This document shows, piece after piece, positions 42,811 through 62,237 of a DNA stretch of 64,000 bases (position 1 is the first letter of the stretch; every line of letters starts with the position of its first letter). This stretch comes from Elusimicrobium minutum. GTDB lineage: Bacteria > Elusimicrobiota > Elusimicrobia > Elusimicrobiales > UBA9959. Made by a program: the position numbers and the translations under genes. Below the pieces are notes generated by a model. It was not told the origin of the DNA. It was given only the letters and a program-made list of their open reading frames with translations, and did no database searches. Location: assembly GCA_020723765.1 (NCBI GenBank), contig DYIF01000003.1, positions 1-64,000 on the forward strand, written 5' to 3'.

Positions 42811-43932
42811 TTATTCCTCGAGTATTTCGACGTTGGCTCTCGGAACCATCACTTTTTCCCCTCCGTCGAGTTCCACTTCAAGCACTCTTACGTGGCTTTC
42901 GGTAGGTATTATGGTGGGCTCGGGAGGAAGTTTAGATACTTTGCCTATAAGTCCGAAGTAAGGTTCTCTTATTATTCTTACCTTGTCGCCTATTTCCATC
43001 CATGTTCTGGACTCGTCTTTTCTTTTAACGTCCAGTTTGGGAGAACCGCATATTATTATCTCGGGTCTCATAACGCCGGCTCTTATTTGCGTCGCTCCGC
43101 TGACCGACGCCTTTTCCCCTTCCCTTGTTTTTAAAAGTTTGAAAGTATATTCCGCCATTCTTATTTGTCCAAAACCTTCGGTAACTATTATCGTGGTTCC
43201 TAATTGTTCGCTTCCTGTTACGGCCACTCCTATGTCGTAACCCAATAATTGTCTTAAATCTTTATCGTGTATTCCGCCGACCACTATGGCATGAACGCCC
43301 ACTTTGATGGCTTTTTTAATCGCATCAAGCCCGGCGTGTCTTCCCCCCACTATTATCTTGCCTTTATCGGTATCTTTTATGTCTTCCGATAAAAGTTCGT
43401 CGTTTGGAGTCTGAACGGCCACCCTTATCTCTCCGTTTGTCTCTCCGCCTATTCCGAATATCCCCTGTATAAAAGTGCCTTCCGTTTCTATTTCGACTCC
43501 GAAATTCTCTTCCACTTTTACCACCTTGCCTTTTATATAAGCTTTTAGCGGAAGTATTTTGGGAGGCTCTCTAAATAGAACCTGTCCGGTTATTTCGGAT
43601 ACCGAGTCTATGGTGCCTGTAATTGGAGCTTCGACTTGAGAGCGCAAAAACTTTATGAAAGATTTGGTTTCCGCTATTACCTCTCCTTTTTTTACGGCGT
43701 CCCCTTCTTTTTTTAACATATAATTTTTAAGTTCGGATGGTTCGCATCCAAGCCTGTTTGCTATGTTTACCGAATAAACTTTGCCGGGAAGTTCCGCTTC
43801 GGCTACCACGTCTAAAGCGTCGACTTCTTTCCCGACGCTTACTAGAACCTTCCCCGGTATCGGGAGAACTCTTTTCTTTTTTATTAAGGTTAACGGTAAA
43901 ACTTTAAGTCCTGGCGTATATGCGTGAGCCAT
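42811..43932 (-). CDS. Barrel-sandwich/KOW-like protein of the GlmL cluster, function unknown
   Basis: I do not know the function of this 373-residue soluble protein. The N-terminal third (about 15-125) has two biotinyl/lipoyl- or RnfC-like barrel-sandwich halves (VLVSVGKEVDALDVVAEAEL and LKKEGDAVKKGEVIAE) without a modifiable lysine motif I could identify. A central alpha/beta part has GGRHAGLDAIKKAIKVGVHA and VGGIHDKDL. The C-terminal 65 residues look like an SH3/KOW beta-barrel. It lies eight bases after the GlmL-family gene, and that pairing suggests a joint role. Confidence 0.7.
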   Translation of the reverse strand: MAHAYTPGLKVLPLTLIKKKRVLPIPGKVLVSVGKEVDALDVVAEAELPGKVYSVNIANRLGCEPSELKNYMLKKEGDAVKKGEVIAETKSFIKFLRSQVEAPITGTIDSVSEITGQVLFREPPKILPLKAYIKGKVVKVEENFGVEIETEGTFIQGIFGIGGETNGEIRVAVQTPNDELLSEDIKDTDKGKIIVGGRHAGLDAIKKAIKVGVHAIVVGGIHDKDLRQLLGYDIGVAVTGSEQLGTTIIVTEGFGQIRMAEYTFKLLKTREGEKASVSGATQIRAGVMRPEIIICGSPKLDVKRKDESRTWMEIGDKVRIIREPYFGLIGKVSKLPPEPTIIPTESHVRVLEVELDGGEKVMVPRANVEILEE

Positions 43933-43940
43933 AATTCCTC

Positions 43941-45737
43941 CTATTTTTCGGGATACATATTTATTTTGTTAAACCACTTCGTCAAATTCTCGACTCTTTT
44001 TTGTTCGGACTTGGGAAGTTCGAGCGGTCTTCCTCTTCCGTCGAATAATATTCCGCCTACTCCGCCCTGAATCTTGGATTTGAATTTGGAGTTTTTACCC
44101 TGTCCGGCGTCGAAACCTTTTAACGGTTTTAAAGTTATTTCGGCTTCTTCGTCTTTTAACTCAACAAGATACATCTCTCCAAATCTCAGGCTTCCGTCTA
44201 TTTTCTTGCCTTCTTTGGTCTCTATCTCCCACTCGAGTATCAACTCCCCTTCTTTCGCCAATCCAACCGGGGCTATGGTGGTTCCGAGTTTTATAAGACA
44301 ATCGTTGTAGAAAACATCCAATGAAGCTTTTTCGCTTATCTGAGACAAAACCCCTAAGTGAGGCATCATAAATATAGAGTCGACCGCAAGCATGGTTATC
44401 CCTTCCAATTGATATGAGTCCGTCATTAAAACCATAGATTGGACTCTTCTTGGAGAATGCGCCAAAACACCTCCGGAGCCTATTACGTAATTTAGGTTCA
44501 TCATATTTATTAAAGATTGCCCGGTGGATGTTTGGTCGAAGGCGTCGGAAATGGATCTTTCCTGCTGAACTCCTTTAAGTCCGACGGCCAAAAGTTTATG
44601 CTGGTCCAAAGCCAATCTTAAAGCCTCTCTGGCCACGGCGTGCTCTATCATAAGATCTTCGACCGTTTGCGGTATTGTCGTCGGTCTTATCATTTTGTTT
44701 TTTAGTCTGTTCCTTACTTCCTGTTCGTCTATTTTAAAAGGCAACCATCTCATTATGTTAGCCACCCCCGCTTCGGCCATAACGTTCGATACCGAGTAGC
44801 TCATTCCTAAGTTTGCGCTTACGGTTCTGTTGAATATCGTATCGAAAACGGAGAAAACGTCGGTTGTCGCTCCCCCTATATCCACAGCAAGAACGTTATA
44901 GTTTTTCGCTCTTGCGAATTTTTCGGTCATAAGTCCGACCGCCATCGGAGTGGGCATTATCGGAGCGCCTACCATCTTCATAAGTTTGGGGTATCCCGGA
45001 GCCTGTTGCATAACATGCTCTAAAAATACGTCGTGGATTTTGTGTCTTGCCGGCATAAGATTTTCTTTTTCTAAAACCGGCCTTAAGTTTTCGGTTATCA
45101 TCAAAGCGGTTTTTTCGTCCAGTATCTCTTTTATTTTGTCTCGAGCGGCGCTGTTTCCGGCGAATATGACCGGAAGCTTATAAGAGGCCCCGAGTCTTGG
45201 CTTGGGGTCCGCCGCTTTTACAAAGTTGGCAAGTTCCACTACGTGAGTTATGGTTCCTCCGTCGGTTCCTCCGGATAATAGTATCATATCCGGTCTTAAT
45301 TGTCTTATTCTTTCTATTTTTTCATGGTCCGCTCTTCCGTCGTTTGATGCTATTATATCCATTACTATCGCTCCGGCTCCTAAAGCGCATCTTTGAGCCG
45401 ATTCCCCCGTCATGGCTTTTACGGCGCCGGCTACCATCATCTGTAGGCCTCCGCCCGCGGAGCTTGTGGATACGTATATATCGACTCCGGTATTTCCTTT
45501 ATTTGGAGTTATTACTTTGTCCCCGTCTAATATTTTTCTTCCGCTTAACTCTTCGACTTCTATTATCGCGTTTTTTACTCCGCAGGTAACGTCTTCAAAC
45601 GGAGCCTCTACGGTAGTGGGAGCTTCTCCTCTAAAGGTTTGTCTGTAAGTGTCTCCTTTTTTTTCTATCAAAATCGCTTTTGTGGTGGTGCTTCCGCAGT
45701 CCGTCGCTATTATTACGTTTAAATCCTTATCGCTCAT
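43941..45737 (-). CDS. GlmL/MutL-family ASKHA ATPase without a linked mutase
   Basis: The 598-residue protein belongs to the GlmL/MutL family. It has the ASKHA phosphate-1 loop ATDCGSTTTKA (11-21) and a second nucleotide motif DIGGATTDVFS near residue 290, with LLSGGTDGG between them. In clostridia GlmL is a partner or reactivase of the B12-dependent glutamate mutase, but no mutase subunit (GlmS/GlmE) or B12 gene is in the window. Here it is flanked by the barrel-sandwich protein, a 99-residue protein and four membrane proteins. It probably acts as an ATP-driven factor for that system. A strong ribosome binding site (AGGAGGT) precedes it. Confidence 0.85.
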   Translation of the reverse strand: MSDKDLNVIIATDCGSTTTKAILIEKKGDTYRQTFRGEAPTTVEAPFEDVTCGVKNAIIEVEELSGRKILDGDKVITPNKGNTGVDIYVSTSSAGGGLQMMVAGAVKAMTGESAQRCALGAGAIVMDIIASNDGRADHEKIERIRQLRPDMILLSGGTDGGTITHVVELANFVKAADPKPRLGASYKLPVIFAGNSAARDKIKEILDEKTALMITENLRPVLEKENLMPARHKIHDVFLEHVMQQAPGYPKLMKMVGAPIMPTPMAVGLMTEKFARAKNYNVLAVDIGGATTDVFSVFDTIFNRTVSANLGMSYSVSNVMAEAGVANIMRWLPFKIDEQEVRNRLKNKMIRPTTIPQTVEDLMIEHAVAREALRLALDQHKLLAVGLKGVQQERSISDAFDQTSTGQSLINMMNLNYVIGSGGVLAHSPRRVQSMVLMTDSYQLEGITMLAVDSIFMMPHLGVLSQISEKASLDVFYNDCLIKLGTTIAPVGLAKEGELILEWEIETKEGKKIDGSLRFGEMYLVELKDEEAEITLKPLKGFDAGQGKNSKFKSKIQGGVGGILFDGRGRPLELPKSEQKRVENLTKWFNKINMYPEK

Positions 45738-46033
45738 TTTACCTCCTCTTTTAACTTTTCTCTAAAAAATTCAAGCCCTTTCGGATTTTCAAGTATTTCG
45801 GATATTTTTTGCATTTCATCTTTTGAAAATATAAATCCCAATGTGGGTTGGGCAAAATAGATAAGATTTGAGGTTAGGGTATGTATAGGTCTTGTGCTTT
45901 CGGCAAACATTAACGCGATGTCTTCTAATTTCCTTTTTTTAATTTTTTCTACGGCTTTAATTATAATCTCTTTTTCGGGTTCCGTTAAATCTCTGCCGTT
46001 ATTTATTTTAAACGCGTTTGACCATATGCTCAT
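45734..46033 (-). CDS. Small conserved-looking helical protein beside GlmL
   Basis: This 99-residue soluble protein is mostly helical, with no cysteines and no signal peptide. Residues about 33-65 (RKLEDIALMFAESTRPIHTLTSNL) and a final helical segment are its most distinctive parts. I cannot name a family with certainty. It overlaps the GlmL-family start by four bases, which argues for a true gene and a joint function. A 47-base gap separates it from the DUF192 gene. Confidence 0.65.
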   Translation of the reverse strand: MSIWSNAFKINNGRDLTEPEKEIIIKAVEKIKKRKLEDIALMFAESTRPIHTLTSNLIYFAQPTLGFIFSKDEMQKISEILENPKGLEFFREKLKEEVK

Positions 46034-46080
46034 ATCTTAAATTATACTAAAAAATATTATTTTAATATATTCGAATCAAG

Positions 46081-46551
46081 TTAGCTTCCGAGCCATTTTA
46101 TTTTTAATTTATCGCCTTTTTTAAGTCCCAATTCAAAAGCCTTTTTCGCATTTATTTCTATGACGTATTTGGCCCTGGAACTGACCATCGGAATATCTTT
46201 ATCCGAAGTCTTTTCGTTTGTCGAGCTTACGTTTTCAAAAATATCGTTTATCCTCATATTTTTAGACAAAAAAATTATATCGAGCGGTATATATGTGTTT
46301 TTCATCCAGAAAGTTTTTTGGTCTTCTTCTTCAAAAACAAATATCATTCCGCAGGTTTGGCATAGCTCTTTTCTAAACATTAATCCCAATTTTCTCTCGG
46401 CTTCGGTTCTGGCTATTTCTAAGTTTATATTTCCTTTTTCGGTCAATAAAACGGCTTTTTCAGCGTTTTTGATATCGGTTCTATTATAAAAATAAAAGAT
46501 CGAAATAATAAAAACGCCGGTTATTAAAATAAATATTTTATTTTTTTTCAT
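46081..46551 (-). CDS. DUF192-family secreted protein
   Basis: The 156-residue protein has a membrane helix or signal sequence (about 5-22) and a DUF192 domain over about 32-153: the RTEAERKLGLMFRKEL segment, GMIFVFEE, FWMKNTYIPLDIIFL and the closing VIEINAKKAFELGLKKGD. DUF192 proteins are widespread, usually exported, and of unknown function. It overlaps the unknown gene upstream by 14 bases. Confidence 0.85.
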   Translation of the reverse strand: MKKNKIFILITGVFIISIFYFYNRTDIKNAEKAVLLTEKGNINLEIARTEAERKLGLMFRKELCQTCGMIFVFEEEDQKTFWMKNTYIPLDIIFLSKNMRINDIFENVSSTNEKTSDKDIPMVSSRAKYVIEINAKKAFELGLKKGDKLKIKWLGS

Positions 46552-46978
46552 TTAAAAACTCTTTTTCTATTATCGGTTTTATTATTTTAATGTCGTCTAC
46601 GGTTTTTTCTATTTCTTTTTTTATTTTTGCGGAAAATTTTAGATTTTCATCTATCGGATATCCCCTTTCTTTTGCGATCCGAAATATGTCTTTATTTTTC
46701 TCGGTTTCTTTAACTATCCCGGATAAATCGGATTTTGTGTCTTTCAAATATTTAAGCAAAAAAATCAGCTCGGTTCTGGAAACTCCGTTTCTTTTTATTA
46801 AATATATATTGGTAATCGATTGAGTATCGGTTGTTATGTCGAAATCCAAATTTTCCTTAAAATATTTTATCGTTTGATTGGTAAATTCTTTATCGTATAA
46901 AGAGTCAAGAGTGGTGTAATTAGTTGCGGAATTGTCCAGAGAAAAAAGATTGAGCGAAAGTAATATCGAAAAAAACAT
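46538..46978 (-). CDS. Hypothetical secreted helical protein
   Basis: The 146-residue protein starts MFFSILLSLNLF, a short signal-like hydrophobic stretch. The remainder is helical and charged with no recognised domain. An open frame runs 41 codons further upstream, but it crosses the AsnC-type gene in another frame. The TGATG overlap at 46978 (stop of one, start of the other) picks this start. Function is unknown. Confidence 0.6.
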   Translation of the reverse strand: MFFSILLSLNLFSLDNSATNYTTLDSLYDKEFTNQTIKYFKENLDFDITTDTQSITNIYLIKRNGVSRTELIFLLKYLKDTKSDLSGIVKETEKNKDIFRIAKERGYPIDENLKFSAKIKKEIEKTVDDIKIIKPIIEKEFLNEKK

Positions 46979-47211
46979 CAGATGGATGTGGTTACAAGCG
47001 TTTCCGTAGATAAAACTCCCGGAATGTTTCTTATCTCGTTTACCACAACCTGAGAAAGCTGTTCCAGATCTCCGGTTTCCATATCGAGCACCAGGTCCCA
47101 TCTTCCGAAAACCGCCGACATATGAACCACTTCTTTTATTGTTCTCAGTTTTGTTAAAACCTGCTTTTCTTTTCCCGGCACCATCTTAACCAAAACAAGC
47201 CCTGTTACCAT
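46978..47211 (-). CDS. Stand-alone Lrp/AsnC effector-binding-type domain
   Basis: The 77-residue protein is a single ferredoxin-like RAM domain with the pattern VPGKEKQVLTKLRTI, VFGRWDLVLDME and IRNIPGVLSTETLV. It lacks the helix-turn-helix of Lrp/AsnC regulators, so it cannot bind DNA by itself. Such domains bind small molecules, often amino acids, and oligomerise. The gene lies between membrane-protein genes of the GlmL cluster and has a good GGAGG site. A role as a sensor or allosteric subunit is an inference. Confidence 0.8.
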   Translation of the reverse strand: MVTGLVLVKMVPGKEKQVLTKLRTIKEVVHMSAVFGRWDLVLDMETGDLEQLSQVVVNEIRNIPGVLSTETLVTTSI

Positions 47212-47226
47212 AGAGCCTCCGAATAA

Positions 47227-47970
47227 TTAGGAGTTTTTAGCTATAACTTTATTTAAAACAAATTTTTCAAGAAGGAAATATATTACCAGACCGACTATTA
47301 TCCAGTTTGTGGCGTAAAAATACTGAGCGTTCGAATATCTTACAAGAAGATCGAATCTTCCGTAAAGCAACGAAAATCTCGCCATAACCGTATTTCCGAA
47401 AGATGCTCCGAAGTAAATCATTAAAAAGTATATTCCGAAGTTTGATATCTTTTTAACCGCTCCTTTGTGTTCTATTGAGAAGAAGAAATAAAACAAAACC
47501 GATATGGAGCCGATTAAAAGTATCAAAGCGTTTATTAATTGTCCGGGAGTAAGATTGACTATGTTGGCGAAAGGTTCAATCGTTCCTAATATCTGGTTTG
47601 TAAAATCGGTGGCAAGTCCCGCCGGAAGAGCAAGTCCAGCGGAGTATCCCATCATAAAAGTAAAACCGTATCTGGATAGCCAGGATATCCTCGGTATAAA
47701 CTGAGTTATCAACGAAAGCCCTAATATTGTCGGTATTATTATCATCCATATGGTAAACCAATTACCGCTAGCCCATGCGACTTTCATCGGCTCCCAGACT
47801 TTTACTTTTATAATCTTATATATTATCAGTTGTATATGCCACGCAAGACCGGCTCCTATATAAAGATGTTCCGCCGCCTTAAAAAAAGGATTGTCTTTAT
47901 ATAAGAACGAAAATATAAAAAGAGTAAGCCCCGCGGCTACCCATGCTCCCAGTATAGTTGAAAATTCCAT
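47227..47970 (-). CDS. Polytopic membrane protein of the GlmL cluster
   Basis: The 247-residue protein has about seven predicted membrane helices, with short loops and almost no soluble domain. Conserved-looking stretches are FKAAEHLYIGAGLAWH (about 32-47), GYSAGLALPAG (about 112-122) and GASFGNTVMARFSLLYGR (about 196-213). I do not recognise a transporter family. The next upstream gene is 10 bases away. It may form a channel or a membrane base for the cluster. Confidence 0.7.
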   Translation of the reverse strand: MEFSTILGAWVAAGLTLFIFSFLYKDNPFFKAAEHLYIGAGLAWHIQLIIYKIIKVKVWEPMKVAWASGNWFTIWMIIIPTILGLSLITQFIPRISWLSRYGFTFMMGYSAGLALPAGLATDFTNQILGTIEPFANIVNLTPGQLINALILLIGSISVLFYFFFSIEHKGAVKKISNFGIYFLMIYFGASFGNTVMARFSLLYGRFDLLVRYSNAQYFYATNWIIVGLVIYFLLEKFVLNKVIAKNS

Positions 47971-47980
47971 ATTCTCTCCT

Positions 47981-48802
47981 TTATGAAAGTTTAAGTATAA
48001 GTAAAACTATGTTTGAAAATATTATAAAAAGTATAACCAGAAGATGCGCTATGTTTAAAGCGTCTATTCCGCTCGTTCCTTTTCCGGGTTCGGATATAAG
48101 CCTTTCATACTCCGCCGCTCCTTTCATTCCGCCTATTAGTCCTTTAAGTTGTTTCTTCTGAAGGTAAGGGCCGTATCCGACCTGGCTTATGGCGGTAACC
48201 CCGCCCATTACCGGAACTCCGTATTTATCTCCGACGAAAACTATCCAGCTATCAAGCAAAGCGGTTCCGGTTATATCGATCACCGCCGAAATGTCCTTAT
48301 AATTTTTTATCTTTTTCATCATCTCAAAATTTTTTAAAATTTTATCGTCTTTGTCTTTATCGTAAATGGCGTATATATCCGAAGACATTTGAGTTAACGC
48401 CGCAAGGACGTTGGGCATATAAGGTAGAACGACGTAATCTTTACCGTACTCCTTTCCGTATTGCTGAGGTATGTTTCTTATATGCTCGTCTATAAGACCG
48501 CCCGAACCCGCAAGAAAGGTCATTATGATTACTTTTAAGTTTTTCTTAAAAGCGTGCTTTAATATCGCCGCCGATTGCGGATGAAGCTCCGGTGCTGTTG
48601 ATGGATCGTAGTCCATTGAAAGTATTATAGTAGATCCTTCGGGAAGTTTTTCTATAAAGTTATAGGTATCCTGAACTCCGCTCGATATCGATTTTGAGGA
48701 TATACCTATCGGTTTTATTATAGGTATAAGTATAGAAAAAGTTAAAAGAAGAAACAGCCATCTTCTATCTATTTTTAAAAGTTTGTTTAATGTTTCTTTC
48801 AT
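47981..48802 (-). CDS. Membrane protein with alpha/beta soluble domain, GlmL cluster
   Basis: The 273-residue protein has a membrane helix near the N-terminus (about 14-32) and one at the C-terminus (about 250-270). Between them is an alpha/beta domain with GSTIILSMDYDPSTAPEL and a glycine-rich end (GLIGGMKGAAEYERL). The repeated strand-helix pattern recalls Rossmann-like or periplasmic-binding folds, but no family is identified. It sits between two polytopic membrane proteins with gaps of 10 and 14 bases, and a good AAAGGAG ribosome binding site. Confidence 0.7.
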   Translation of the reverse strand: MKETLNKLLKIDRRWLFLLLTFSILIPIIKPIGISSKSISSGVQDTYNFIEKLPEGSTIILSMDYDPSTAPELHPQSAAILKHAFKKNLKVIIMTFLAGSGGLIDEHIRNIPQQYGKEYGKDYVVLPYMPNVLAALTQMSSDIYAIYDKDKDDKILKNFEMMKKIKNYKDISAVIDITGTALLDSWIVFVGDKYGVPVMGGVTAISQVGYGPYLQKKQLKGLIGGMKGAAEYERLISEPGKGTSGIDALNIAHLLVILFIIFSNIVLLILKLS

Positions 48803-48816
48803 CGATTTTCTCCTTT

Positions 48817-49485
48817 TTAATCTTTACCCATATAACCGCGTTCTATTCCGAATATTATTTTTAATGAAGTTACGGCCGCGCCTATCGCTATGCCTATCAT
48901 TATGCCTCTTTTTCCGGCCGTGGAAGGAACGCTTATAATCCAGTTCTTAATATCGGCTATCGTGGTATTGGTCCAGGCGAAAAGCTTATCCCATATTATC
49001 TCGCCCAAAGGAATGTTTCCCAACATTAAAACAAGACCGGCTATAAATAACAAAAACGCGGGGAATGATTTGATTCTAAAAGACCTGTATGCGGTCGATA
49101 TTATGAAAAAGGCGAGAACCGAAAACATAGTCGCGCTTAGCGGATTATATATGTTATTGAAACTCCATCCTAAGAAGGTTATCTTTCCGTTGTCGGATAT
49201 CTTTCCGTCGCTTACTATAGCCGCAACCATTATCACGAGAAACCCGAAATAAACGAATAAACTATATCCCCACCCGTCCACTTTTCTTTCTATTTTTTTG
49301 TAATGGGCGTAGAACAAGCTTATAGCTCCTAAAAATAACGCAAAGGCCGCTACGATATTTTGCCATATGTTTATCCACTCCAAATAATTTTCGGATTTCC
49401 TATGAGGGACGTAATAAGACGCTAAGGTCATTATCCCGAATACGAACACTATGGCTAACGGTATATGTTTTTTTATAAGATTCAT
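48817..49485 (-). CDS. Polytopic membrane protein of the GlmL cluster
   Basis: The 222-residue protein has about six membrane helices. A charged loop lies near residues 58-66 (HYKKIERKVDGW) and a polar segment near 90-110. The C-terminal part has GKRGIMIGIAIGAAVTSLK followed by IFGIERGY. No family is recognised. It is one base after the DUF6754-like gene and 14 bases before the next one, which places it firmly in the operon. Confidence 0.7.
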   Translation of the reverse strand: MNLIKKHIPLAIVFVFGIMTLASYYVPHRKSENYLEWINIWQNIVAAFALFLGAISLFYAHYKKIERKVDGWGYSLFVYFGFLVIMVAAIVSDGKISDNGKITFLGWSFNNIYNPLSATMFSVLAFFIISTAYRSFRIKSFPAFLLFIAGLVLMLGNIPLGEIIWDKLFAWTNTTIADIKNWIISVPSTAGKRGIMIGIAIGAAVTSLKIIFGIERGYMGKD

Positions 49486-49486
49486 A

Positions 49487-50761
49487 TTACCTCACCTTCA
49501 ATATATCCAGTATGGTATTAGTAATGTTAATAGCTCCCGCTTTTGAAGAAATAACGAGAACTATCGATAAAAGCGCAGCGAAAATTATAAAGAAAAGCTT
49601 TCCGAAATCCTGAACTTTTAACGCGCTTACAAGCATCGGTTCTTTTGAAAGATAAGCTCCGGCCGCATAGAGTTCTTCTCCGATTAACGTGTAGTCGCAG
49701 GCCGTTACGAAAAACGGTAACTGGTGGTCTATGTCGGTTCCGGCTATTTGTATGGCTCCGGCGCTTGCTCCCACTTCGGCAAGGAGCAAAGATTCGGCCA
49801 TAAAGTATCCCATATAAAAGCATGCCGCGGGTTTTTCCCTCGTTATCATACCGTCTACCGCCGCCGCATATGCGAACTGGTCCTGAGTTATAAACATGTT
49901 TATATCGTCTCTGTAAGAATCGGGTCTTTCTGCTTCTATATAAGCTTGTTTTATCGTTTCTTTTGCTACGGTAAATACTATTGGGTCGTAATGCGGTACT
50001 TTTATGTTTGCGTCGTACTGGGCTATTTTTTTGCCCACTTCTCCGAGTATAAAAACCGAGGCTATGGTCGATATGTTGGACATAGATCCTATCCCGGGAA
50101 CATAAATAACCGGTTTTCCCATCTCGGTGGCTCTTCCCACCGCCTCGTCTATGGCGTCAAGACCGGCTATCCTTCTTATAAATAATTCTCTTTTTTTAGC
50201 GTGAGATACCACCATAAAAAACACCAGAGATACGAGTAAAACTATTATAAGGCTGTTAAGCCTGTCCGCTCTAAACCAATTCCCTATGGCTATCGCCGAT
50301 ACCGTTTGAGACTCGGATTTTTGTTTTTTGGATATAACGTTTAATTTAGCATAGAGTTTAAAGCCGTTAGAATATTCCTTAAAAAATTCTTCTTCCTGTA
50401 TATTGAAGACTTTCATTATTTCGATGACGCACGCGTTTTTGTTCTCTTTTTTGTTCCATATCCAGAAAGGAAGGTCTATATTTTGCGAAGTAAAACTTCC
50501 TTCTTTTTGTTCTTTTACTTTTTTCCAGTTTTTTTCGTCTGTAGATACCATTATCTCGTATATAAGATCTTTGTCGTCGTTGGTATCCCATTTAAGTATT
50601 AAAGAATCCCCTCTGTCGCTCGGATAATCTAATAGTTCAAGCCCTGGTAATTCTATTTTTACGTTTTGAGGCTCTACCTGTTTTTTCGGTTTGGAAGGTA
50701 GCGCGTTTATGTTGGAAATTATAAAAACAGATATCAAAAAAAACTTAATCTTTCTTATCAT
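49487..50761 (-). CDS. DUF6754-like membrane protein with FN3-like ectodomain
   Basis: The 424-residue protein has a signal peptide (about 1-20), an FN3-like beta-sandwich (about 33-165), a membrane helix (about 172-190), a soluble alpha/beta domain (about 200-385) and a final membrane helix. Within the soluble domain, GRATEMGKPVIYVPGIGSMS, ITQDQFAYAAAVDGM and AGTDIDHQLPFFVTACDY are distinctive and fit my recollection of DUF6754. The function of that family is unknown to me. It is the first gene of the cluster that runs down to the GlmL-family gene. Confidence 0.7.
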   Translation of the reverse strand: MIRKIKFFLISVFIISNINALPSKPKKQVEPQNVKIELPGLELLDYPSDRGDSLILKWDTNDDKDLIYEIMVSTDEKNWKKVKEQKEGSFTSQNIDLPFWIWNKKENKNACVIEIMKVFNIQEEEFFKEYSNGFKLYAKLNVISKKQKSESQTVSAIAIGNWFRADRLNSLIIVLLVSLVFFMVVSHAKKRELFIRRIAGLDAIDEAVGRATEMGKPVIYVPGIGSMSNISTIASVFILGEVGKKIAQYDANIKVPHYDPIVFTVAKETIKQAYIEAERPDSYRDDINMFITQDQFAYAAAVDGMITREKPAACFYMGYFMAESLLLAEVGASAGAIQIAGTDIDHQLPFFVTACDYTLIGEELYAAGAYLSKEPMLVSALKVQDFGKLFFIIFAALLSIVLVISSKAGAINITNTILDILKVR

Positions 50762-50803: not shown

Positions 50804-51652
50804 TTAAAATATCTTTATTTCCGATTTTTCTTTTAATATATTTAAAACCCTGTTTTTATTTTGGTTTATAATCTCGAATTTTATCGAACCTTTTATTTTT
50901 TCTTTTATATCTTCAAACGGTATCGTCCGTTCGTTTTTTTTATCTTCGACTTTTATTATCGAATAACCGTTTCCCGTTTTAATCGGTTTTGTGTATTTAT
51001 TGGCTTCCATCGCAAAGACTTCTTTTTCTATTTCCGGTATTAACATTCCTTTCGTAATATACCCCAGGTCTCCTGCTTTCTTTTTTAAATTTTCATCCAC
51101 CGATTTTAATTCCGCCATTTTTTCGAAATTCGCTCCGGCCTCAAGAGCTATGTATACGTCGTTGGCTTCCTGTTCGGTATTTACAAATATCTGTCTGAGT
51201 TTGACGGACTGCGGTATTTTAAACTGCTCGGGATTTGAGTCGTAATATCTTTTGGCGTCTTCATCGGTTACGTTTAAATTTAATATCGAGATTAACGCTT
51301 TTTGAGCGAGTAATTCGTTTTCTATCATTTTGGAATAATCTTTTTCCGATATATTCATTTTTAAAAGCTCTTTTTTAAAATCCTTTTCCGAATTAAATCT
51401 CGATTTTATGTTGTTTATTATATTTTGGACCTCGTTTTTTTCGACTTTTATGTCGTTTTTATTCGCGTAGTTTATAAGAAGTTTTTCGGAAATTAAATCG
51501 TCCAAAGTCTTTGTAAAGTAGTTTGCCGACATTTTCACATAGACTTCGTTTAGAGTTATATAAGTTTTGTCCACCTGAGCTATTTTTTTCTCCTCCGCTT
51601 TTAACAAAGATACAAATGCGCATACAAAAACTAAAAATAAAAAGTTTTTCAT
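50804..51652 (-). CDS. Parvulin-type peptidyl-prolyl isomerase (SurA/PrsA-like foldase)
   Basis: The 282-residue exported foldase has a signal peptide (1-19), an N-terminal SurA-like helical chaperone domain (about 22-135) and a parvulin domain (about 145-250: VKLRQIFVNTEQEA, GDLGYITKGMLIPEIEKEVF and GNGYSIIKVED). It probably assists folding of periplasmic or outer-membrane proteins, which fits the barrel and surface proteins in this window. It has a good GGAG ribosome binding site, with 42 bases to the DUF6754-like gene. Confidence 0.9.
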   Translation of the reverse strand: MKNFLFLVFVCAFVSLLKAEEKKIAQVDKTYITLNEVYVKMSANYFTKTLDDLISEKLLINYANKNDIKVEKNEVQNIINNIKSRFNSEKDFKKELLKMNISEKDYSKMIENELLAQKALISILNLNVTDEDAKRYYDSNPEQFKIPQSVKLRQIFVNTEQEANDVYIALEAGANFEKMAELKSVDENLKKKAGDLGYITKGMLIPEIEKEVFAMEANKYTKPIKTGNGYSIIKVEDKKNERTIPFEDIKEKIKGSIKFEIINQNKNRVLNILKEKSEIKIF

Positions 51653-51665
51653 TTCTCTTCTCCTT

Positions 51666-52736
51666 TTATTTGTTTATATAGATTTTTTGTGTGGGATAAG
51701 CAAATTCTATGTTTTCTTTTTTAAATTCTTCGGCTATATTATGCAAAAGCTTTTCATGAGTTTGCATATATAAAGCGTAATCAGGAGATGTTATATAGTA
51801 AACCGTTTCAAAATCTATCGAATAATTGTTAAAAACGGATAAATTGGATCTGTCAAACCTCGTATTGTTTAATTTTTCGACCGATTTTTTTATTATTTCC
51901 GGTATTATTTTGATTTTTTCGATTGGAGTTTCGTATATAACCTGAGTATTAAATACGACTCTTCTTTCTTTCATGGTGGAAAAATTCTGTATCATTTCGG
52001 ACATTATCTTCGAATTTGTTATTATCAAAAGCTCTCCTCTAAGCGTTCTTATTTTGACCGATTTAAGCCCTATCTCTTCGACGGTTCCGGATAGATTTTG
52101 AGAAGGCAGTAAGATAAAATCGCCTATCTTAAAAGGTTTGTCTAATATTATCACGAAAAAGTTAAAAATATCTCCGAGTATCGTTTGAGAAGCAAATGCC
52201 ACCGCCACGCCGCCTATTCCAAGACCAGTTAAAAGCGCTCCTACTTTTACTCCGAAGTTATGAAGCAGAAATAAAACCGCTATTATCCATATTATCACCT
52301 TAAATATCACTCTTAAGGTTTTTATCGATTTTTCATAATCCGTTCCGGATATTTCATTTAACCAAAAGTTTAAAATTTCATCCAAAGAAGCCACTATCCT
52401 GTAAGTTATCGTTATTATCAAAAGATATTTTATGGAATTGGAGACAACCGAGGGCATTATCAGATTTTTGGTGGCTAAATATACGGAAAGTATCTGGTAC
52501 TCGTGCCATTTTATGTTTTTTATTAAGTTTATAAAAACGTCGTCTAATTTGGTTTCGGTTTTTTGAGCTATTTTTTCTATTTTTTTAAGAGCGGTATTTT
52601 TAAAGTAATATAAAATTTTTAAAATTACAAAAAAAAGTATTAAAGAAAATATATACCCGTATAAACTGTTTGAAAACATTTTTAAACTTAAAAAGTCGTG
52701 TAACTTGGATATATACAAATCATAAAACTCAACCAT
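51666..52736 (-). CDS. Small-conductance mechanosensitive channel (MscS family)
   Basis: The roughly 356-residue channel has four or five membrane helices. The pore-lining TM3 region is GALLTGLGIGGVAVAFASQTILGDIF, split across about residues 185-215, and is followed by the beta domain start KPFKIGDFILL and a C-terminal alpha/beta domain. MscS channels release solutes on hypo-osmotic shock. The frame opens with TTG at 52751, but ATG 52736 is more likely. A TATAAT motif lies just seven bases before that ATG, and no ribosome binding site is visible. Confidence 0.9.
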   Translation of the reverse strand: MVEFYDLYISKLHDFLSLKMFSNSLYGYIFSLILFFVILKILYYFKNTALKKIEKIAQKTETKLDDVFINLIKNIKWHEYQILSVYLATKNLIMPSVVSNSIKYLLIITITYRIVASLDEILNFWLNEISGTDYEKSIKTLRVIFKVIIWIIAVLFLLHNFGVKVGALLTGLGIGGVAVAFASQTILGDIFNFFVIILDKPFKIGDFILLPSQNLSGTVEEIGLKSVKIRTLRGELLIITNSKIMSEMIQNFSTMKERRVVFNTQVIYETPIEKIKIIPEIIKKSVEKLNNTRFDRSNLSVFNNYSIDFETVYYITSPDYALYMQTHEKLLHNIAEEFKKENIEFAYPTQKIYINK

Positions 52737-52788
52737 AAAAATATTATACAATTTTTATTTTTTTGAATATTAAGATAGAAAAAAAGTC

Positions 52789-53190
52789 TTACTTATAATG
52801 CAGTTTTAATTTTGTTCTATCTAATTGGGCAAGTTCGAAGTCCTCGCTTGATTTTAAGGCTTTTTTGGGACAGATGTCTACGCACTGAGCGCAGTATATG
52901 CATCTGTCCAAATTCATTATGCAATCGAATTTTTTCTTTTGAGGTATTGGGTTACCGTCCGGCCCCGTTTGGGCGGCGGGTTGAGTATCGGAAATTATTA
53001 TTTCTATGGCTTTTGAAGGACACACCCTCATGCACATCTTGCATCCTATGCATTTTTCGCTTTCGAAAAGTATTCTGGCTCTGAAATTGGGATATACTTT
53101 CGCTTTTTCAAAAGGATATTTGGATGTAGCCGGCTTTTGGGTTAATTGCTTTATCGCTTCGGGAAGTAATCTTAATGGTTTTTTCTTCAT
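52789..53190 (-). CDS. Ferredoxin-like subunit of group 4 [NiFe]-hydrogenase (NuoI-like)
   Basis: The 133-residue protein carries two 4Fe-4S motifs, CIGCKMCMRVCPSKAI (about 48-63) and CIYCAQCVDICPKKAL (about 95-110), in the NuoI/HycF arrangement. It passes electrons between ferredoxin and the small subunit of the complex. The frame opens at GTG 53196, but AAAGAGGTGAAT before ATG 53190 selects the later start. It is the last gene of the hydrogenase operon, with four bases to the upstream gene counted from the longer start. Confidence 0.92.
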   Translation of the reverse strand: MKKKPLRLLPEAIKQLTQKPATSKYPFEKAKVYPNFRARILFESEKCIGCKMCMRVCPSKAIEIIISDTQPAAQTGPDGNPIPQKKKFDCIMNLDRCIYCAQCVDICPKKALKSSEDFELAQLDRTKLKLHYK

Positions 53191-53200
53191 ATTCACCTCT

Positions 53201-54139
53201 TTAAAATTTTAATCTTATGTATAAGTCTATAAGTATCTGTATTACCGCTACGGGAACGAGATACTTCCATGAAAACTTAACCATCTGGTCTACCCTTACT
53301 CTCGCCATAAGAACTTTAAAGAGAGTAAGTATAAGGCATACTACCAGAGTTTTTATTATAAATATGGCAAACCCGAAAAATCCGGATATGTTATGAAGTC
53401 CGCCTAAAAATACCGCATTTATTAAGGCCGCTAAAACTACCATTTCTATATCTATGGCCAATAGAAAAATTCCCAAAAGCCTTCCAGAATATTCGGTAAA
53501 CTGGCCGCCGACTATTTCGTTTTTAGCGTGCGGGGTATCGAAAGGAACTCTTTCCAGTTTTCCCTGAGAAGCCAAAAGCGCAACTATAAAACCCGGAATG
53601 TTTACCAGTATCATCAATGGGTTTTGAGTGAAATATTCGGATATTTTATAAACGGACCAGCTCTGCGCTATTATGGCGCAACCCGCGAACGACAAAAACA
53701 ACGGCACTTCATATCCGAAAAGCTGTGTCATAACTCTCATGGAACCTATCGTGGAATAAGGGCTTGTGGATGACCATCCGGCTAAAAAGAAAGTAACGGT
53801 CGGAATGGTCAAAAGGTATACTATAACCACTATATCCCCTTCAAAACTGACCATCGGAGTTCCCCAGACCGGTATCATAAATATCGTAGTTATTATGCTT
53901 GCCAGCGCTATATACGGAATAGATTTGAAAAGTATCTCGTCCGCATTATCCGGGATTACTACTTCTTTGGATATTAATTTTATAAAATCAGCAATCGGCT
54001 GATAAATGGGCGGTCCGACCCTGTTTTGCATTACGGCCGTTACTTTTCTGTCTATCCATTGTATCAAAGTGGCGTATGCTCCCAGGAAAACAAAGCCGGG
54101 AAACACCGCTATATACAATAAAGGCATTATCGTATCCAT
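53201..54139 (-). CDS. Membrane anchor subunit, NuoH-like
   Basis: The 312-residue subunit has about eight membrane helices and the NuoH signatures WIDRKVTAVMQNRVGPP near residue 30 and FDTPHAKNEIVGGQFTEYSG near residue 200. In group 4 hydrogenases this subunit (MbhM/EchB/HycD type) joins the catalytic arm to the proton- or sodium-pumping modules. It has an AGGAG ribosome binding site. Complex I NuoH looks very similar, so the assignment to a hydrogenase rests on the adjacent catalytic subunits. Confidence 0.93.
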   Translation of the reverse strand: MDTIMPLLYIAVFPGFVFLGAYATLIQWIDRKVTAVMQNRVGPPIYQPIADFIKLISKEVVIPDNADEILFKSIPYIALASIITTIFMIPVWGTPMVSFEGDIVVIVYLLTIPTVTFFLAGWSSTSPYSTIGSMRVMTQLFGYEVPLFLSFAGCAIIAQSWSVYKISEYFTQNPLMILVNIPGFIVALLASQGKLERVPFDTPHAKNEIVGGQFTEYSGRLLGIFLLAIDIEMVVLAALINAVFLGGLHNISGFFGFAIFIIKTLVVCLILTLFKVLMARVRVDQMVKFSWKYLVPVAVIQILIDLYIRLKF

Positions 54140-54165
54140 ATTAACTCCTGTATTATAAAGGCGTT

Positions 54166-55353
54166 TTATTTAAAGCTTACGCCTTTCTTTTTATAAAATT
54201 CTATAGAGTACTTTCTTAAGCCTTCCCAATCGAAAACCTCTTTTTTGCCGGTTTTATAGTCGTAAACCACCGCTCTGTCGGTGCAGCTCATGCAAGGGTC
54301 TATGGCGGCGATCGTTATTATGGCGTCCGCAAGATATCCGTTTTTAAGACAATACGGTATCGACTGGAAATTGGCAAGCGTCGGCGCTCTTACTTTCACC
54401 CTCTCGGGATACTCGGTTCCGTTCGCTTTTACGTAATGAATATCTTCCCCTCTCGGCGCTTCATATCTAAAAACCGCTTCTCCGGGGCCTATCTTCCAGG
54501 GCACTTTTACCGATATCGGGCCTTCCGGAAGATTTTTTAATATCTGTTCTATCATTTTATAAGATTCTATGGTTTCAAGCACTCTTACAACCGCTCTTCC
54601 AAATACGTCTTCGGTATTGTGAGTTATAACCTTGAAATCTAATTGGTCGTATATAAAATAAGGCTCGTCTCTTCTTACGTCGATATCCACTCCGCTTGCT
54701 CTGGCGGTAGGGCCTACGGCGTTTAATTCCAGGGCGACATCTTTGGGAAGTTTTCCCACATTCTGGGTTCTTGCCAGAAATGTCGGCTCTTCCGTTACCA
54801 CTCCGACATAATACGAAGTTCTTTCGTGGAGAAACTTTATTTTTTTCAATATTTCTTCCGCCTGCTCTTTCGTTATGTCTCTTCTTACTCCGCCTATCGT
54901 ATTTATTCCGTAATGAACTCTGTTTCCGCTTATCATTTCAAGGCAATCTAAAACCTGTTCTCTGTCTCTCCATGTATACATAAATAAAGTATCGTAGCCC
55001 AACTCAAACGCAGCAACCCCAAGCCACAATAAATGAGAGTGAACTCTTTCAAGTTCGGCCACAAGAGTCCTTATTGCTTTTGCTCTTTGAGGAACCTCGG
55101 CTTTAGCTATCTCCTCTACTGCGTTTATATAGCAGCTTACATGAGAATGAGAGCATATTCCGCATATTCTTTCTATAAGATAAATATCCTGTATGTAATT
55201 TCTGTTTTCCGCGGCTTTTTCGACACCTCTGTGATTGTATCCTAAATTAACTGTTGCATCGACTATCTGCTCGCCGTCCAATACCAACATAAAGTTTTCC
55301 GGTTCTTTTAACGCCGGATGCTGGGGTCCTAACGGTATCTGTATTTTTGACAT
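54166..55353 (-). CDS. Group 4 [NiFe]-hydrogenase large subunit
   Basis: The 395-residue subunit is related to complex I NuoD but keeps all four nickel ligands: C64/C67 in ERICGICSHSH (L1 motif) and C354/C357 in DPCMSCTDR (L2 motif). NuoD lacks these. It should therefore make or oxidise H2. A 35-residue tail follows R360, matching the peptide removed by a maturation endopeptidase in HycE-type subunits. No maturation genes (hypA-F, hycI) are in the window. It has the AAGGAGG site and overlaps the NuoC-like gene by one base. Confidence 0.93.
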   Translation of the reverse strand: MSKIQIPLGPQHPALKEPENFMLVLDGEQIVDATVNLGYNHRGVEKAAENRNYIQDIYLIERICGICSHSHVSCYINAVEEIAKAEVPQRAKAIRTLVAELERVHSHLLWLGVAAFELGYDTLFMYTWRDREQVLDCLEMISGNRVHYGINTIGGVRRDITKEQAEEILKKIKFLHERTSYYVGVVTEEPTFLARTQNVGKLPKDVALELNAVGPTARASGVDIDVRRDEPYFIYDQLDFKVITHNTEDVFGRAVVRVLETIESYKMIEQILKNLPEGPISVKVPWKIGPGEAVFRYEAPRGEDIHYVKANGTEYPERVKVRAPTLANFQSIPYCLKNGYLADAIITIAAIDPCMSCTDRAVVYDYKTGKKEVFDWEGLRKYSIEFYKKKGVSFK

Positions 55354-55844
55354 TATTCCTCCTTAGCGCATTTTTCATCTAACATTTTGTTAAGTTCTTC
55401 CAACTTAACTTCTTTTCTGAGCGGATGAACCCCTTTAGGAAATCCTTCGGGAAGAGGATAGTTTCGCCCTTCCGGAAGTCCTTCTATTTTTATTCCGAAC
55501 AAATCTTCAAGCTCTCTTTCATAAGATGTGGCTACCGGATAAACTTCGAGAACGGACTTTAAAACGGGGTTTGTTTTCGAAGTTCTTAGTTTGATATTTA
55601 CGAGGGTTTTATGGTCGGTTATATGATATATCGCTCCCAATTTTTCGCCTTCGTCAAATCCGGTTATGGTGGATAAGTGATAATAACCTTTGGTTTTTAA
55701 AAATCTCATTACTTCCAGAGCTTTATCTGAGTTTACGTCTATCCAGACTCTTGTTTTCCTTGTTATGGAAGCGTTCTCGATAACGGCGCCGAATTTTTCT
55801 TTAAGTTCTTTTACAAGTTCTTCCTCTTTTATTATATCGCTCAT
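55353..55844 (-). CDS. NuoC-like subunit of the hydrogenase complex
   Basis: The roughly 163-residue soluble subunit matches the NuoC/HycE-N 30-kDa family. Signatures are the YHLSTITGFDEG segment, DLFGIKIEGLPEGRNYPLPE and the closing HPLRKE. It supports the large subunit structurally. The frame opens at GTG 55850, but ATG 55844 has AAAGAGGTGATT ahead of it. It is a separate gene here and not fused to the large subunit as in HycE. Confidence 0.92.
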   Translation of the reverse strand: MSDIIKEEELVKELKEKFGAVIENASITRKTRVWIDVNSDKALEVMRFLKTKGYYHLSTITGFDEGEKLGAIYHITDHKTLVNIKLRTSKTNPVLKSVLEVYPVATSYERELEDLFGIKIEGLPEGRNYPLPEGFPKGVHPLRKEVKLEELNKMLDEKCAKEE

Positions 55845-55846
55845 AA

Positions 55847-56302
55847 TCACCTCTTTGAAACTGTTTTAGAGTTTTTTTCAAGCTCGGTTATAAGTTTTAC
55901 CACCGCGTCTATTATCGCTTCCGGCCTTGCGGGGCAGCCCGGTATATAAGCCGATACCGGTATGACTTTATCTATTCCGCCGACAACGCTATAACAACCG
56001 TCGAAAACTCCGCCGGAGCACGCGCAGGTCCCAACCGCTAAAACAAACTTCGGGTTAGGCATCTGGTCGTATATCCTTTTAAATCTTTTCGCCTGTTGTC
56101 TTGTCAAAGGACCGCTTACTATCATTACATCCGCGTGTCTCGGAGTTCCTTTTAAAACTATACCGAATCTTTCTATGTCGTATTTCGGTGTGAGCGCATC
56201 GACTATTTCTATGTCGCAGCCGTTGCATGCGCCGGTGTTGAAGTGTATTATCCATGGAGATTTAAGTCTGGACCATAATATTATTTTGTCTTTTAATTTC
56301 AT
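55847..56302 (-). CDS. Group 4 [NiFe]-hydrogenase small subunit
   Basis: The 151-residue subunit carries the proximal 4Fe-4S cluster. The ligands are C26 and C29 in GACNGCDIE, then C93 (GTCACSGG) and C123 (PGCPARPE). The CxxC pair is the hydrogenase form; complex I NuoB has adjacent cysteines (CC). That supports the hydrogenase call for the large subunit. There are two further cysteines at 95 and 103 of unknown role. It lies four bases after the NuoA-like gene. Confidence 0.93.
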   Translation of the reverse strand: MKLKDKIILWSRLKSPWIIHFNTGACNGCDIEIVDALTPKYDIERFGIVLKGTPRHADVMIVSGPLTRQQAKRFKRIYDQMPNPKFVLAVGTCACSGGVFDGCYSVVGGIDKVIPVSAYIPGCPARPEAIIDAVVKLITELEKNSKTVSKR

Positions 56303-56306
56303 AAAT

Positions 56307-56633
56307 TTATCCTATAAAAAGTATCGAAAGTATGACTATTACTATTACCGTATATATGAACGGTATCAAAAAGGGTATCGAACCCGAAAAAGCTAAAGTC
56401 ATAAGCATCAACGCCGCTACGTGAAGTATGGTAAAGAATATGGCATAAGGATAAAACTCCTCATATCCCGGCGTTACTTTTTGGGCCGGAAAATCTTCTC
56501 CGCATGCGTATGTTTTGGATGTTTCCGGGTTTTTTTCGGTTTTAGGCTCAAATCCTTTTATCAATTTGCCGAAAATCAAAACCACCGCTAAAGATATTAT
56601 GAAAGCAAAAGGCGGGTAAAGATATATTTCCAT
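56307..56633 (-). CDS. NuoA-like subunit
   Basis: The 108-residue protein has three membrane helices (about 8-24, 62-82, 88-106) and a NuoA-like loop with TYACGEDFPAQ, resembling the YECG motif of complex I subunit A. Many group 4 hydrogenases lack this subunit, so its presence places the complex nearer the complex I end of the family. AAGGGG ribosome binding site. Confidence 0.85.
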   Translation of the reverse strand: MEIYLYPPFAFIISLAVVLIFGKLIKGFEPKTEKNPETSKTYACGEDFPAQKVTPGYEEFYPYAIFFTILHVAALMLMTLAFSGSIPFLIPFIYTVIVIVILSILFIG

Positions 56634-56636
56634 AAA

Positions 56637-56945
56637 TCACCCCTTTAAGTTTATTATTTTTGTTATGTCTATGCTTTGATTTAGCCTGTAGTATTTTACC
56701 ACCAAAGCCAGACCGCTTGCTATTACTACCGCTTCAACAAGTATCATAACTATTATTATGTTCTGAGCTAAGTTAATGTTATTTGTGGCAAGACCCGCGG
56801 TTATTACCGCTATAAGAGCGGACTTGGATATTATTTCAAAACCTATCAAAAGCTTAATGATGTTTTTCGATACCACCATGCAATACGCGCCTATAAAGAA
56901 GAGTATCGATATGAAAAACCAATCTATCGGAAAATTATAGATCAT
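56637..56945 (-). CDS. NuoK/MrpC-like subunit
   Basis: The 102-residue subunit has three membrane helices and the NuoK/MrpC-type motifs, with glutamates in LIGFEIISKSALIA near residue 33 and in MILVEAVVIASGLALV near residue 68. These acidic residues line the proton path in complex I. It overlaps the NuoJ-like gene by four bases (ATGA). Confidence 0.88.
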   Translation of the reverse strand: MIYNFPIDWFFISILFFIGAYCMVVSKNIIKLLIGFEIISKSALIAVITAGLATNNINLAQNIIIVMILVEAVVIASGLALVVKYYRLNQSIDITKIINLKG

Positions 56946-57448
56946 ATTTTCCCTCCGTTATCCGCTTCTTTTCTTTTAAAAAATATGTGTTTTATTACAA
57001 ATACGCTTGAGGCTAAAAGGGTAAGCTGGCCTATTATATCCACTCCTCTATATAGCCATATTAGCTTACCTATGGGTTCCTCTTTTTGAGTGTTATAAGT
57101 GGAAAATATCTGAAGCTTTGAAAAGTATTCAGGAACGATTATTGAAGCGGATATTATAAATCCTATAAGCAGAAGCGGGAGTAAAACATATTTAACCCTG
57201 TTTTCTTTAATGTTTTCCTCATCGTGTTTTACAAGGCTTACCGCGCTTACGAACAAAACGGTTATAAGGCCCGCGCAAACCGATAATTCGAAAACCGCGG
57301 CCCAGGGGGCGTTATAAGCAAAGAGCAGAATGGAAACTCCTATGCTAAGCAAAGCCAACATTATGGCGGAATTTATCAACTTTTTAGATATGACCGCGAC
57401 TACCGCTCCCATTATTATTATGAAGTATATCAAAAGATAAAGTGTCAT
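56942..57448 (-). CDS. NuoJ/MrpB-like subunit
   Basis: The 168-residue subunit has about five membrane helices with the NuoJ-like segment AAVFELSVCAGLITVLFVSAVSL, split across residues 49-72. The acidic residue in it fits both NuoJ and the DUF4040-type MbhD family. It probably connects the NuoK-like subunit to the antiporter-like subunits. The exact family label is uncertain because the sequence is diverged. Confidence 0.78.
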   Translation of the reverse strand: MTLYLLIYFIIIMGAVVAVISKKLINSAIMLALLSIGVSILLFAYNAPWAAVFELSVCAGLITVLFVSAVSLVKHDEENIKENRVKYVLLPLLLIGFIISASIIVPEYFSKLQIFSTYNTQKEEPIGKLIWLYRGVDIIGQLTLLASSVFVIKHIFFKRKEADNGGKI

Positions 57449-57460
57449 TTATTCCTCCGA

Positions 57461-62165: not shown

Positions 62166-62237
62166 ATATACCTCTTTAATATAAATTAAATTCATTTTAT
62201 CAAAAAAATAAAATAATTAAAAATTAGTAAATCTAAA

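Follow-up and report, generated by a model that had tools for sequence, protein, structure and literature searches.

A recurrent seven-gene locus that sets a GlmL-family ATPase beside predicted inner-membrane proteins in Elusimicrobium minutum and other bacteria

Background

GlmL and the diol-dehydratase-type reactivases are thought to reset enzymes, GlmL by removing a damaged cofactor or an inhibitor from glutamate mutase. The KamB/KamC and DdrA/DdrB reactivases likewise employ an ATPase in resetting another complex, and pair that large ATPase with a small partner. The GlmL (or MutL) proteins of glutamate mutase operons (NF040745, TIGR01319; PF13941) are ASKHA ATPases; the genuine GlmL gene of Peptoclostridium sits in the order glmS–glmL–glmE. 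DUF6754 (PF20539) is a Pfam family of proteins with an ectodomain, a transmembrane (TM) segment and a cytoplasmic part; the domain is of unknown function. The open-access literature yielded no paper on the seven-gene system described below and nothing useful on DUF6754, PF13941 or 'glutamate mutase L'.

The window (the whole 64,000-nucleotide stretch of Elusimicrobium minutum DNA that was analysed, from an Elusimicrobiota genome of 2.1 Mb, 98% complete) carries an ATPase gene of this superfamily in different company. Its product, here called MutL, has the ASKHA ATPase domain and nucleotide motifs in common with GlmL, but is ~600 aa long, bears a C-terminal extension and has no glmS or glmE alongside. 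KamC is MutS-like, whereas MutL is ASKHA; the Ddr families (DdrA/DdrB) are unmatched by window proteins; and the presumed target differs from those of the KamB/KamC and Ddr reactivases in being a membrane complex. The barrel-sandwich domain of RnfC/NqrA is weakly matched by the BSH protein of the locus. However, BSH falls below the RnfC cut-off, three membrane proteins (TMA, abTM and TMB) are unmatched, and the other core genes match no Rnf/Nqr family, so that the locus does not qualify as an Rnf/Nqr redox complex. Rnf/Nqr complexes have Fe-S cysteines; in contrast, the alignments of BSH, TMA, TMB and the 99-aa protein contain no conserved Cys, which disfavours Fe-S chemistry in these four. 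No database family was found that names the system, and four core proteins match no described family. What the gene system does could still prove to be something familiar, such as transport or enzyme reactivation.

The locus and its genes

A preliminary description of this DNA spoke of nine co-directional genes and a barrel-sandwich gene; all ten are present on the minus strand at 42811-50761, with short gaps or overlaps between them. They are given here in the direction of transcription, with two preceding genes:

51666..52751, minus strand: MscS-type channel, a neighbour kept in Elusimicrobiota
50804..51652, minus strand: SurA/PpiC-type peptidyl-prolyl isomerase, in 23 loci (each Elusimicrobiota-type) a neighbour of the membrane quartet
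49487..50761, minus strand: DUF6754 protein (core), 424 aa (PF20539, E 2e-110, 368 bits vs cut-off 27)
48817..49485, minus strand: TMA (core), 222 aa, six TM segments, without known family
47981..48802, minus strand: abTM (core), 273 aa, without known family
47227..47970, minus strand: TMB (core), 247 aa, about six TM segments, without known family
46978..47211, minus strand: stand-alone RAM (AsnC/Lrp ligand-binding) protein, non-core neighbour (PF01037, E 5e-15)
46538..46978, minus strand: small exported protein, non-core neighbour (start corrected from 47101)
46081..46551, minus strand: DUF192 exported protein, non-core neighbour (PF02643, E 7e-31)
45734..46033, minus strand: 99-residue protein (core), no TM segment
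43941..45737, minus strand: MutL/GlmL-like ASKHA ATPase (core), 598 aa (PF13941, E 4e-122, 409 bits)
42811..43932, minus strand: BSH protein (core), 373 aa, no TM segment, weak RnfC_N match

The start of the MutL gene is overlapped by 4 bases of the gene for the 99-aa protein. The small exported protein most likely starts at ~46978, with an ATG overlapping the RAM stop, since the longer reading frame from 47101 extends back into the RAM gene. The window's TMA, TMB, abTM and 99-aa proteins have no Pfam family matches; when every member of their alignments was scanned against Pfam, only stray hits in one to three members, at ~1e-3, were returned. A sequence search of the PDB found no convincing solved relative of these four, of MutL or of the DUF6754 protein, and nine window proteins gave no match to the PADLOC anti-phage defence models.

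A GlmL-type ATPase apart from B12 mutases

MutL has phosphate-1 (ATDCGSTTTK), phosphate-2 (DIGGATTD) and adenosine (GSGG) motifs, which hardly vary at all among its relatives, and a C-terminal extension of ~115 aa that is missing from genuine GlmL. The homologous ATPase domain and the three nucleotide motifs place it in the MutL/GlmL superfamily (PF13941), and MutL is presumably an ASKHA ATPase that binds and hydrolyses ATP. It lies outside the narrower families, scoring 227 bits against a cut-off of 475 for GlmL (NCBIfam) and 213 bits against a cut-off of 600 for the GlmL-related ornithine degradation protein (OR-4). Peptoclostridium GlmL is 27% identical to it across most of the GlmL length; MutL proteins of other phyla are 59-78% identical to the window's copy. 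'Glutamate mutase L' is thus a misleading name for proteins of this type.

Glutamate mutase E (PF06368) exceeded the cut-off in none of 55 MutL-bearing genomes, the window's included, in a search that found the genuine protein, as positive control, at 783 bits. The surmise that there is no B12 mutase stands for the neighbourhood and, genome-wide, for glutamate mutase E and methylmalonyl-CoA mutase, both absent from the window's genome; it fails for lysine 5,6-aminomutase, which is present on another contig in a lysine-fermentation operon (locus L164, G000:C18:8000-24000: KamA, KamDE, KamC, KamB-like, Kdd, Kce). The aminomutase, together with the membership of MutL in the GlmL superfamily, might suggest that MutL is the displaced accessory of a B12 mutase encoded elsewhere in the genome. 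That operon carries its own reactivase, however (KamC above the cut-off; a KamB-like protein at 87 bits, below the cut-off of 210), the aminomutase family is missing in 8 of the 17 MutL genomes from Elusimicrobiota and in all 22 from elsewhere (30/39), and with glutamate mutase E uniformly absent under a working control we find a displaced accessory scarcely credible. A GlmL-type protein always linked to a mutase is therefore not what these genomes present.

The same genome contains, at G000:C20:146238-166650, seven genes with B12-binding domains (449-510 aa, within 21 kb), possibly encoding B12 radical-SAM proteins; this contig bears 10 of the 14 B12-binding matches genome-wide.

BSH comprises a barrel-sandwich-like N-terminal part (vs RnfC_N, 7e-05 for the window protein, below the Pfam cut-off; 5e-06 for the best member), a conserved middle and a KOW/SH3-like C-terminal part with weak KOW/Spt5 matches. 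Flavin attachment at its 'SGAT' (compare NqrB/RnfG) was considered and rejected: its Ala position is variable (Q, T, R), and the Asp normally found in front is missing. MutL-BSH fusion proteins of 845-959 aa occur in three genomes reached through WOR-3/Stahlbacteria loci (L150, L151, L152), away from the membrane quartets, and divergent adjacent MutL-BSH pairs in two genomes (L160, L161; RecO follows in L160), away from membrane genes. The fusions, and adjacency in the two divergent forms, argue that MutL and BSH probably act together. The L160/L161 pairs may represent a second MutL-BSH system, likewise undescribed.

The membrane proteins

The predicted layout of the DUF6754 protein, its domains assigned to sides of the membrane by signal sequence and the positive-inside rule, is a signal sequence, an FN3-like ectodomain (~40-160), a TM segment, a cytoplasmic alpha/beta domain (~195-375) and a further TM segment. 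An AlphaFold2 model bears out the FN3-like ectodomain noted at the outset; among PDB structures the model matches Ig/FN3 domains best (for example 5n48_D, fibronectin EDB, TM-score by target 0.72). Mean pairwise identity is 66% in the cytoplasmic domain and 27% in the ectodomain; the corresponding values are 72% for MutL (78% for its ATPase part), 60% for BSH, 46-50% for the remaining membrane proteins and 41% for the 99-aa protein. The gradient recurs between tandem DUF6754 copies, with 55-92% identity in the cytoplasmic domain vs 23-67% in the ectodomain (two L126 tandem pairs at 20-23%, involving a degenerate or misread copy, being left out). The ectodomain is absent altogether from the second copy in L172, from L174 and from L176, and in L165, of the Planctomycetota sample, it is replaced by ~840 aa without a Pfam match in a protein of at least 1108 aa. 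Quartets often come in multiples, with 2–7 DUF6754 matches to a single MutL; DUF6754 and MutL matches stand at 7:1, 6:1, 5:1 and, several times, 3:1, some of the DUF6754 matches being partial. Apparent BSH-DUF6754 fusions in L166 and L168 proved to be an artefact of ORF choice (the upstream part resembles BSH in the wrong frame). In profile comparisons the DUF6754 cytoplasmic domain gave no signal of homology to abTM, nor did TMA to TMB.

abTM is laid out as a TM segment, a Rossmann-like domain predicted to lie outside the cytoplasm, and a second TM segment. Its model (pLDDT 94) shows the Rossmann-like domain flanked by the two TM helices and has no convincing match in the PDB (best E 2e-3, low TM-scores). 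The positive-inside signal is moderate: 4.1 K/R in the 15 residues before TM1 vs 3.9 in the two 15-residue ends of the large domain taken together. TMA is predicted to be N-in/C-in, with conserved H61, R134, R137, R193 and E215; TMB, whose topology prediction comes without a clear positive-inside signal, has conserved N27, E34, E167-H168, R198 and R205. Conserved residues of the 99-aa protein are A7, F8, R34, E45, P49, G54 and E82. Its gene directly precedes that for DUF6754, with no MutL between, in L046, L174 and L177 (no MutL was found in the L046 genome), an arrangement that may put this protein with the membrane half.

Conserved residues are packed at enzyme-like density into the DUF6754 cytoplasmic domain (E323, E329, Q338, T342, Q347, C355, D356, E362, E363), and abTM has an acidic cluster (conserved D64-x-D66-P67, E72, D122, D150, E231, E233). 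Either or both might be the catalytic part of a membrane-bound enzyme, for which MutL, BSH and the 99-aa protein would be a true reactivase, removing damaged cofactor or inhibitor; the homology of MutL to GlmL fits this scheme. But Pfam recognises no B12-binding or other cofactor domain in any core protein, no enzyme family is recognised by sequence or fold, and the lack of conserved Cys in four of these proteins, mentioned above, also tells against it. We consider an enzyme with its reactivase unlikely, if still a serious competitor.

Gene order in relatives

Gene order was compared across 19 genomes from the phylum Elusimicrobiota together with the best 80 of at least 569 confirmed relatives from a scan of GTDB genomes, a set that leans to relatives close to the window sequence and samples phyla to that limited extent; lineage names are the submitters' bin names. 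The order is 99aa–MutL–BSH–DUF6754–TMA–abTM–TMB, usually in one operon outside Elusimicrobiota. The window has it as two blocks, 99aa/MutL/BSH separate from DUF6754/TMA/abTM/TMB (the quartet), and in this split Elusimicrobiota arrangement other genes sit between the blocks. Among the best 80 of at least 569 relatives, the exact seven-gene order is found in 31 of the 43 loci with MutL in range, the deviations being mostly contig ends, ORF artefacts of the simple caller or the split arrangement, and the quartet order in 68 of the 80. Median intergenic gaps are a few bases, except about 84 between MutL and BSH. In the same best-80 set, MutL adjoins the quartet in Elusimicrobiota, Nitrospirota, Methylomirabilota, Planctomycetota (including anammox lineages), Gemmatimonadota, Zixibacteria, Desulfuromonas SDB and Latescibacterota. 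Bins of WOR-3/Stahlbacteria, TA06, Edwardsbacteria, Poribacteria and Hyd24-12 have the quartet without a nearby MutL, most of them with MutL elsewhere in the genome.

Judged by gene order, this co-location is beyond chance, since different phyla share both the gene families and their order. Contamination of bins does not account for a pattern that appears in hundreds of genomes, some on multi-megabase contigs (L170, L171, L175). Scattering of the genes among relatives, which would have spoken against a system, was not seen, and the presumption that a GlmL-family ATPase belongs here to a membrane system not described before, and is no accessory of a mutase, gains accordingly from the ordered gene set and the absence of mutase E.

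The three interposed genes fare otherwise. RAM, the small exported protein and DUF192 lie near the core, beside 99aa-MutL-BSH, in some Elusimicrobiota loci only, and the operon occurs elsewhere without them; the comparison of loci rules them out as parts of the system, contrary to the preliminary description. The RAM protein had been the main ground for the idea that the complex senses a small molecule, and that ground falls away. An envelope small-molecule sensor or regulator that includes RAM would account for the recurrence of the trio in those loci; the trio is absent from the loci of other phyla, though, and the core genes include no regulator, and we judge a sensor very improbable indeed. 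A gene of ~720 aa between BSH and DUF6754 in Elusimicrobiota was likewise considered as a missing core part and set aside, being absent in other phyla; where tested, its product is like a PMT-type glycosyltransferase, unmatched, or (L039) an unrelated solute-binding protein.

Co-occurrence and spread

A search of genomes for co-occurrence, suggested at the outset, supports a connection between ATPase and quartet. DUF6754 is found in 19 of 199 genomes of the phylum Elusimicrobiota, MutL exceeds its cut-off in 18, all within those 19, and it does so in 0 of the 180 genomes without DUF6754. Among DUF6754 genomes reached through other loci, 43 of 45 have MutL, the exceptions being G226 and G228. 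Genome G129 (Elusimicrobiota, ~94% complete) retains the 99-aa protein, DUF6754, TMA and abTM, and MutL was not found in it; given these three genomes, the ATPase may be dispensable, lost or unassembled. In the phylum to which a Nitrospira genome belongs, 31 of 148 genomes have DUF6754, and in that of a Brocadiaceae genome 50 of 199 do; it is absent from all 14 named control genomes. Phyla are largely kept together in the MutL tree (divergent forms lie on long branches, their placement unsure); this grouping looks like mainly vertical inheritance.

These counts bear on the proposal that MutL-BSH has an independent cytosolic role, perhaps in contact with RNA or the ribosome as the KOW-like domain might suggest, and that the operon reflects co-regulation only. 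Divergent pairs and fusions apart from quartets, the weak KOW/Spt5 matches and the distance of MutL from DUF6754 in several genomes are in its favour. Gene order conserved over many phyla, near-perfect co-occurrence and the 0/180 without DUF6754 make it highly unlikely.

A working model

That the seven core genes encode one machine, an ATP-dependent membrane complex reset or switched by MutL-BSH (perhaps with the 99-aa protein), is a proposition that we regard as evenly balanced. The membrane half would be an inner-membrane complex of DUF6754, TMA, abTM and TMB, in which DUF6754 would connect a variable exposed ectodomain, through its TM helix, with a strongly conserved cytoplasmic domain, and abTM would expose its acidic Rossmann-like domain at the outer face. 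In the cytosol, the MutL-BSH ATPase unit and the 99-aa protein would make up the other half; BSH and the 99-aa protein would mediate the docking of MutL on the conserved DUF6754 cytoplasmic domain, and MutL would spend ATP to switch or reset the membrane complex in the manner of GlmL or a reactivase. A single ATPase unit could serve several membrane complexes differing in ectodomain: the conservation gradient and the copy numbers are what would be expected if one such unit recognises several complexes with different outside specificities. We infer the physical complex, ATP hydrolysis, the direction of work, the docking site and the envelope target or substrate from comparison of sequences. Against a single machine, the divergent MutL-BSH pairs lie apart from membrane genes, and MutL-BSH may have a role of its own. 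An ATP-dependent membrane complex, as originally suggested, in our view stays the best reading.

More broadly, and with somewhat more doubt than belief, we propose an undescribed class of ATP-driven envelope machine, present in many phyla and inherited for the most part vertically, in which one GlmL-type ASKHA ATPase, bound to a barrel-sandwich adaptor, would power or reset several four-protein complexes of the inner membrane that are interchangeable with one another. If that is true it would be, as far as we know, the first case of a GlmL-family ATPase running a membrane system. The fixed seven-gene order over ~8 phyla and an ATPase roughly 60-80% identical among them point to a function that is probably basic. 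The system is present in Nitrospira (nitrite oxidisers), anammox bacteria and other environmentally important bacteria, and its occurrence there and in finished genomes of the Planctomycetota sample makes it testable.

Neighbouring genes

Neighbours outside the seven genes vary by phylum and point to no substrate. Some are nevertheless of envelope type: Elusimicrobiota have PpiC/SurA and MscS, two planctomycetes have upstream genes that look ExbD-like by eye, and a Zixibacteria genome has a MotA/ExbB-family gene adjoining MutL-BSH. These neighbours, the repetition of quartets, the variability of the ectodomains and the presence of two polytopic proteins whose TM segments contain or flank conserved charged or polar residues could be taken as signs of an ATP-powered transporter or envelope-assembly machine, in which TMA and TMB would form the path and the ectodomains bind different substrates. 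Such neighbours are lineage-specific, however, the core proteins have no homology to any transporter, and GlmL-type ASKHA ATPases are not, to our knowledge, known to power transport; a transporter is decidedly unlikely.

Candidate functions drawn from neighbours (Memo in Nitrospirota, SecG in two lineages, PpiC/MscS) were dropped, as none recurs across phyla. The Memo-family protein (PF01875), with an N-terminal extension of ~125 aa, is encoded downstream of TMB at L073:13782-15044 and in 23 other Nitrospirota loci; the gene immediately ahead of 99aa-MutL encodes SecG in two lineages that are far apart (L066:5757-6110 and L158:3246-3620). In the window, PpiC/MscS and the membrane quartet are adjoined at 52789-62195 by a complex-I-like operon (NuoI, H, D, C, B, A, K and J with antiporter-like subunits, by eye; NuoEFG not seen), and complex-I-like genes also lie near the quartet in several relatives. 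At 62284-63927 is a gene for an IspH-like protein (by eye) of 547 aa, which is above the usual length and possibly a fusion of IspH with ribosomal protein S1.
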